From: Trichothermofontia sichuanensis B231 | GTDB taxonomy: Bacteria > Cyanobacteriota > Cyanobacteriia > B231 | Reading direction: 5' to 3' | Length of the DNA: 64,000 nt | Assembly: GCF_026240635.1 (NCBI RefSeq) | Contig: NZ_CP110848.1 | Span: forward strand, 2,234,501 to 2,298,500 | Shown here: positions 7,610 to 8,894 of the stretch, piece after piece | How positions within the stretch are numbered: position 1 is the first letter of the stretch | Layout of the letters: each line of letters opens with the position of its first letter | The notes under the pieces: generated by a model | Database searches by the model: none | What the model was told of the DNA's origin: nothing | The model's input: the letters and a program-made list of their open reading frames with translations, nothing else | Made by a program: the position numbers and the translations under genes

Positions 7610-7637
7610 GCGCGGTAAGCACGACATCACTACCTAG

Positions 7638-7714
7638 AACCACCAAGCCACGAAGGGCACCAAGGGACACCAAGATCTTCGTAATCTCTTTGTGCCCTTG
7701 GTGTCTTTGTGGTT
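7638..7714. repeat. Imperfect inverted repeat after ftsH
   Basis: Arms of about 28 bp at 7638-7665 and 7686-7714 both read outward as AACCACNAAGNCAC followed by AAGGGCAC. Transcribed, this folds into a long stem directly after the ftsH stop and could end or stabilise the message. Similar AACCACAAAGACAC repeats are common between bacterial genes, from general knowledge. Confidence 0.55.
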
Positions 7715-7757
7715 AAGCAACCCCCCTGCCCCTGACCCAAACCTCCCCGAAAATCCT

Positions 7758-8138: not shown

Positions 8139-8693
8139 GCCCGATCCAGGATGATCCCACCCCGTTGACCCCAAAATTTAGCAATTCTTATTCTGAGCCA
8201 AACTTTTCCCCAGACTTTCCACAGGTTTTCCCCAGGGAGTGCCCAAGTTTTCCACAGGTTTTGGAAAGTTTTCCACAGGCTCCGACGCTGTGAATAGCCT
8301 TTGCCGGATCTTCTGGGGATATTGTCCCTGCCCCCCTCTTCCCCCGATTCCCAAGCCTTTACGTAAAGGAATGTAACGATAAGACGCCGCAAACCCTAGT
8401 AATCTCGTTCAGGTCATTTTGGGTGGCAGGCGATCGCAACATTTCGCAGCGTTGACAACCCCACCCCCCCATAGCGCAAAATGATGCGACCGACCTCGAT
8501 AGTCATGCCCCGCCATGCCATCGAGGAACGGTCTAACCCCCTGTCACGCTGGCTTGGGGGATGTTTTGGCTGTTCAAAATTCGGGTCAATCCGGTTGGTG
8601 GGTTCCCAGCCCAGTACCGTCTCCCTCGGAGAATCCCCGACATCCCAGACGTGACTGTCCTATCCTTCATTCATTCCCGGAAGCGAGGTTTCC
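8139..8693. other. Gene-free stretch with DnaA-box-like array
   Basis: This stretch of 555 bp has no convincing gene; its open frames are short and overlap the 9-mer array. Apart from that array at 8204-8277 I see only GC-rich spacer and one ribosome-binding-like GAGG before the next start. Confidence 0.5.
8204..8277 (+). promoter_or_regulatory. Cluster of five DnaA-box-like 9-mers in helical phase
   Basis: Five same-strand 9-mers are visible: TTTTCCCCA at 8204, CTTTCCACA at 8215, TTTTCCCCA at 8226, and TTTTCCACA at 8248 and 8269. TTTTCCACA is the DnaA box reported for cyanobacteria; the others differ by one base. Start-to-start spacings are 11, 11, 22 and 21 bp, so all lie on about the same face of the helix. 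This could be a DnaA-binding cluster (origin, titration site or regulatory site). No dnaA or dnaN lies in the window, so an origin is only a possibility. Confidence 0.5.
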
Positions 8694-8894
8694 ATGAACG
8701 CAATGGTCAGCATTCTGGCAGAGATCCCCGAATCCCTTCATGATTCCCTGAAAACCTACCTGGAGGCCCACCCGGATTGGGACCAGGATCGGGTATTTGC
8801 TGCCGCCCTGTCCCTTTTCTTATTACAAAACGGTGACTGCGATCGGCGAGCCGCTCGCGTGTATCTCGATACACTCTTCAAGCACCCGGTCTAG
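8694..8894 (+). CDS. DUF2811-type small protein
   Basis: This encodes a protein of 66 residues with the sequence pattern SILAEIPESLHDSLKTYLE, HPDWDQDRVFAAALSLFLLQ and RRAARVYLDTLF. It matches my memory of the short cyanobacterial DUF2811 family, whose function is unknown. The ATG at 8694 has GAGG 7 bp upstream; an alternative ATG is at 8703. It is predicted to be soluble and helical. It lies between the DnaA-box-like array and the psaA upstream region, and a set of GTGAACA direct repeats follows its stop codon. Confidence 0.8.
   Translation: MNAMVSILAEIPESLHDSLKTYLEAHPDWDQDRVFAAALSLFLLQNGDCDRRAARVYLDTLFKHPV

Follow-up and report, generated by a model that had tools for sequence, protein, structure and literature searches.

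A helically phased DnaA-box array associated with the DUF2811 gene in cyanobacteria: a putative DnaA-responsive promoter region

Introduction

What does a DnaA-box array do on a cyanobacterial chromosome when it lies more than a megabase away from dnaN? Most cyanobacteria are polyploid, and replication in S. elongatus is DnaA-dependent; in Synechocystis PCC 6803 dnaA is dispensable. Here we consider an array from Trichothermofontia sichuanensis B231, found within a 64,000-nucleotide stretch of DNA (the window) that spans positions 2234501-2298500 of the single 4.437-Mb contig. A preliminary description of this locus, made from sequence, offered three readings: an origin in an unusual place, a DnaA-titrating locus or a DnaA-regulated promoter. 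Our results best support the last of these, with DUF2811 rather than the neighbouring ftsH as the target, and speak against an origin.

Organization of the array

The array and the features next to it are as follows (coordinates are those of the window).

8177..8194, plus strand: AT-rich conserved element TTTAGCAATTCTTATTCT (TTTGYAATTCTTATCATT in relatives), directly 5' of box 1
8204..8212, plus strand: DnaA box 1, TTTTCCCCA; its non-consensus base is conserved as C, or as T in Nostocales
8215..8223, plus strand: DnaA box 2, CTTTCCACA; mostly NATTCCACA in relatives
8226..8234, plus strand: DnaA box 3, TTTTCCCCA; mostly NTTTCCACA in relatives
8248..8256, plus strand: DnaA box 4, TTTTCCACA
8269..8277, plus strand: DnaA box 5, TTTTCCACA; in relatives GG comes next, then a conserved ACG (here at 8285-8287)
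8314..8322, minus strand: weak inverted box ATATCCCCA; the conserved form, some 44 bp beyond box 5, is an inverted box or TGGGGATTT
8694..8894, plus strand: DUF2811 gene (PF10929), 66 aa, the next gene downstream of the array (Pfam E-value 1.6e-30)

The five DnaA-box-like 9-mers initially described at 8204-8277 were found again in the window sequence at the same positions, on the same strand and with the same 11/11/22/21 spacing; two of the five are exact and three are one base away. At 10.5 bp per turn, boxes 2-5 lie 1.05, 2.1, 4.2 and 6.2 turns from box 1, in agreement with the proposal that all share one face of the helix. The array is far outside chance expectation. The window holds 27 sites with at most one mismatch (17 expected), five of them inside the 74 bp of the array, and three random genomes of matched size and dinucleotide make-up had at most two same-strand sites per 74 bp. 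Counting exact TTTTCCACA sites genome-wide, as the preliminary description had proposed, gave 47 occurrences versus 23 for the reversed control word. Of 39 genomes, 28 contain paired boxes separated by 10-13 bp; none contains the reversed control pattern.

The array follows DUF2811 across cyanobacteria

The 66-aa product scores 105.6 bits against PF10929, for which the gathering cut-off is 26.6, and thus belongs to the DUF2811 family. We surveyed 39 genomes from 27 families, requiring at least two sites within one mismatch, or TTATCCACA. Of the 27 sampled families, 25 have boxes upstream of DUF2811 that share the strand of the gene and keep a common register. In families f8, f13 and part of f31 the arrays are weak, although both dnaA and DUF2811 are present. 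Among 80 named loci, which include Nostoc, Anabaena, Fischerella, Acaryochloris, Thermosynechococcus, Leptolyngbya and Okeania, at least two boxes were found in 79 and at least three in 76, the sole locus with fewer than two being truncated by a contig end. Box density averages 3.9 in the 800 bp 5' of DUF2811, compared with 0.2-0.3 in adjoining 800-bp stretches. The shared grammar is TTTTCC(C/T)CA -11- NATTCCACA -11- NTTTCCACA -22- TTTTCCACA -21- TTTTCCACAGG, then ACG and, some 44 bp on, the weak inverted box; the AT-rich element TTTGYAATTCTTATCATT 5' of the array is near-invariant in most families. Family f16 has TTATCCACA as its boxes, which is still a DnaA box, at unchanged spacing; dnaN, beside which the oriC boxes of this family might be compared, was not found in the approximately 1.24 Mb of f16 sequence examined.

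Flanking genes vary among loci, and the ftsH, the 126-aa gene and psaA of the window accompany the array in none of the 80. Because array and DUF2811 occur together without ftsH elsewhere, we rejected ftsH as the target in favour of DUF2811. The association also extends to additional copies of the gene: DUF2811 paralogs in the small-genome family f2 are preceded by boxes, as are five of six examined copies on large Acaryochloris and Nostoc plasmids, and in the Nostoc plasmid copies the promoter described below lies at unchanged spacing from the array. Judged from this comparison, the array is best described as a cis-element belonging to DUF2811, the gene that follows it, conserved boxes being tied to one downstream gene as expected for a DnaA-regulated promoter. 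DUF2811 had first been mentioned merely as a neighbour; its cross-species tie to the array and its co-loss with dnaA (see below) make it the likely target.

In the dnaA-plus genome G237 and in genera g42 and g125 of f31, either the DUF2811 match or the array is weak. These species may replicate independently of DnaA.

A putative promoter at constrained distance from the array

Between the array and DUF2811 the following elements can be predicted.

8360..8377, minus strand: GTTACATTCCTTTACGTA, an HLR1-like site that departs from the RpaB motif at one position and lies 92 bp 5' of the -35 element
8452..8457, plus strand: predicted -35 element TTGACA, within the conserved block ATTTCGCAGCRTTGACAACCCCACCCCC
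8477..8482, plus strand: putative -10 element CAAAAT (CACAAT/GACAAT in relatives), spacer 19

Together, the latter two would constitute a putative sigma-70-type promoter, which is conserved and has a long spacer of 17-19 bp. Its distance from the array is constrained, as expected of a DnaA-regulated promoter: from the last box to the -35 element it is 180-185 bp in 48 of 69 loci, and further groups lie at 152, 162, 172-175 and 191-196 bp. Off-mode distances are mostly one to three helical turns away, in steps of roughly one turn, several of these classes being single clades, so that independent shifts are few. A similar distance series, mostly 266-272 and also 248-250, 257-259 and 276-281, was obtained for the AATTCTTAT element 5' of the array. 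The distance from promoter to ATG is variable (63-445 in the 69 loci). A match to HLR1, the RpaB motif as quoted in PMC11633204, lies on the minus strand at exactly -92 from the -35 element with at most two mismatches in nine of 19 tested loci, three of them perfect; the remaining loci have weaker matches or none.

Rfam was used to look for a conserved RNA in the interval from array to gene and returned sub-threshold miRNA-like matches only, on an inverted repeat at 7630-7720. This imperfect repeat (CACCAAG...CTTTGTGCCCTTGGTGTC; 7640-7717) is situated between ftsH and the next ORF.

Co-loss of DUF2811 and dnaA

Cyanobacteria that have lost dnaA, free-living as well as symbiotic, have been described before (PMC7198777). 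We scored both genes in 389 cyanobacterial genomes with a completeness of 97% or more; 21 yielded no dnaA and 17 no DUF2811. The dnaA-minus set comprises 20 listed genomes and G389, taken as the 21st, which has no row among the matches. DUF2811 is absent from 15 of these 21 genomes, is a pseudogene with stops in two and is intact in four; among the 368 dnaA-plus genomes it is present in 366, and both genomes that lack it are fragmented drafts (380 and 460 contigs). Absence or pseudogenization thus affects 17 of 21 dnaA-minus versus two of 368 dnaA-plus genomes (Fisher p <=2e-20, with genomes counted as independent and kinship uncorrected). In a guaA tree, i.e. a single-gene tree, dnaA presence changes at least 7-8 times, and in genera g76 and g130 DUF2811 has been lost in dnaA-minus members and kept in dnaA-plus members.

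Some dnaA-minus members have small genomes and may have lost many genes besides DUF2811. The one control family run was DUF3067, which, like DUF2811, does not occur in the non-cyanobacterial control genomes; 20 of the 21 dnaA-minus genomes have kept it. In the four dnaA-minus genomes with an intact DUF2811 the array is lost or decayed and the promoter is kept; most of their dnaA-plus sisters have kept the array. Retention of the promoter where dnaA is gone suggests that it can work without DnaA. The joint decay of gene and sites in most lineages devoid of DnaA points to an undescribed replication-control circuit.

The DUF2811 protein

Two AlphaFold runs gave three helices at low confidence (pLDDT 66-67), and our impression is of a possible ribbon-helix-helix pattern. 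Foldseek and sequence searches for relatives of DUF2811 gave no PDB or other Pfam match, and a search of phages found no DUF2811. Literature searches, with subscription papers mostly outside their coverage, retrieved neither a paper on 'DUF2811' nor a description of non-oriC DnaA-box arrays in cyanobacteria; likewise, no published account of a link between dnaA and DUF2811 was found in the literature searched.

Alternative explanations

According to one alternative, the locus resembles datA/DARS, i.e. the array sequesters DnaA or alters its nucleotide state, and the proximity of DUF2811 is incidental. The phased head-to-tail boxes, together with the inverted box downstream, would suit an ordered DnaA oligomer, and phased arrays also occur away from promoters, where genes converge (downstream of guaA, and in the rlpA-ndhB interval). 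However, the array stays with DUF2811 where the neighbouring genes change, where the gene is duplicated and in plasmid copies, its distance to the predicted promoter is kept, and DUF2811 itself is lost with dnaA, so that we regard this explanation as unlikely. Titration, as initially suggested for this locus, may occur as a side effect; it leaves unexplained both the constant company of DUF2811 and the distance to the promoter.

The other phased arrays are of two kinds. Directly 3' of guaA and antisense to it, three exact boxes spaced by about 21/20 bp were detected in 10 of 30 genomes tested. This array is absent at guaA in the B231 genome and in the dnaA-minus genomes examined, and was rejected as a universal second locus, given its presence in only 10 of 30 genomes and not in that of B231. 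A second phased array on the B231 chromosome, at 2444045-2444095, consists of three exact TTTTCCACA spaced by 21/21 bp. An rlpA-like gene and ndhB converge on it, so that its position is not that of a promoter and it is a candidate titration site.

Alternatively, the boxes could be bound by another regulator with a DnaA-box-like motif, and the AT-rich element and the HLR1-like site do suggest that further factors act here. Yet the 9-mer is identical both to the oriC boxes of this genome and to boxes footprinted with cyanobacterial DnaA (PMC4674748), the array decays where dnaA is gone, and the sequence found in f16 also qualifies as a DnaA box; a different binder is accordingly very improbable.

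Finally, the array might be a chromosomal origin. In the B231 genome dnaA is at 1.057 Mb and dnaN at approximately 3.416 Mb, and an oriC-like region adjoins the latter at 3417042-3417238, 1.17 Mb from the array. It contains ten box-like sites on both strands, six of them exact, and a DnaA-trio, TAGTAGTAGTAG-GGCC-TGTGGAAAT. The array is not adjacent to dnaN, and TAG/CTA repeats, looked for nearby as a sign of a trio or unwinding element, were not found. It shares TTTTCCACA boxes with the cyanobacterial oriC beside dnaN (PMC4674748) but differs from it in lacking dnaN and the DnaA-trio and in having boxes mainly on one strand. The preliminary description had named a stronger box cluster beside dnaN elsewhere and a GC-skew minimum there as observations that would count against an origin in the window; the cluster was found, and the minimum was not seen, the skew being flat across 41 sampled genome pieces and thus giving no origin position either way. 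Because this cluster with its trio exists elsewhere, we rejected the array as oriC. A second origin could be invoked given the clustering of true-looking boxes beside an AT-rich conserved element and the initiation from several sites in some cyanobacteria (PMC7198777), but with dnaN, two-strand boxes and a trio elsewhere, no trio here, and like arrays preceding DUF2811 on plasmids and each paralog in f2, we give this idea next to no credence.

Comparison with known systems and a proposed mechanism

In Bacillus subtilis, DnaA activates sda, which encodes a small checkpoint protein, by way of a cluster of boxes (PMC4447404, PMC8203912). The sda promoter is the closest parallel to the present array, as in both cases a box cluster precedes a gene whose product is very small and DnaA acts, here presumably, as a transcription factor away from oriC. 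By analogy, the array looks as if it works like a DnaA-regulated promoter of the sda type. B. subtilis belongs to a different phylum, however, and no sequence relation was found; in addition, the boxes of the cyanobacterial array adhere strictly to the 11/11/22/21 grammar, some 183 bp separate them from the -35 element downstream, and an HLR1-like site is present as well. In the Escherichia coli nrdAB and dnaA promoters (PMC8203912), as putatively here, DnaA boxes are found at a sigma-70 promoter under DnaA control, but the number, spacing and distance of boxes differ, and the target here is the function-unassigned DUF2811. With datA/DARS of E. coli and the DnaA-box clusters of B. subtilis the array shares its non-origin character, differing from them in being tied to one gene and one promoter.

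Taken together, the comparative sequence data make it probable that DnaA regulates DUF2811, that DUF2811 acts in the DnaA pathway, and that the array provides the sites for DnaA within a compound promoter region. Given the conserved sequence and the known box specificity of cyanobacterial DnaA (PMC4674748), DnaA most likely binds the array cooperatively and tunes the predicted DUF2811 promoter. DnaA molecules, aligned head to tail along one helical face, would form a cooperative assembly and, probably in concert with RpaB at the HLR1 site, act on the putative sigma-70-type promoter some 183 bp further on, from a fixed distance and rotational phase. Active DnaA would thereby lead to production of the small DUF2811 protein, which may in turn act in the DnaA-oriC pathway. 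Its acting back on this pathway is suggested by the co-loss with dnaA, and its role would most simply be that of a feedback regulator or checkpoint factor.

Replication initiation is reported to depend on photosynthetic electron flow in S. elongatus (PMC6478999), a species that carries DUF2811. A more tentative proposal, which we consider possible but somewhat doubtful, is that DUF2811 controls DnaA-dependent initiation and that its promoter reads both DnaA and, through RpaB at HLR1, light/redox state, linking photosynthetic electron flow to replication initiation. The control of DnaA in cyanobacteria is largely open, and the array, together with a small gene that tends to be lost along with dnaA, offers a specific candidate for a regulator dedicated to this task; light input may enter the control of DUF2811 by way of the HLR1-like site.
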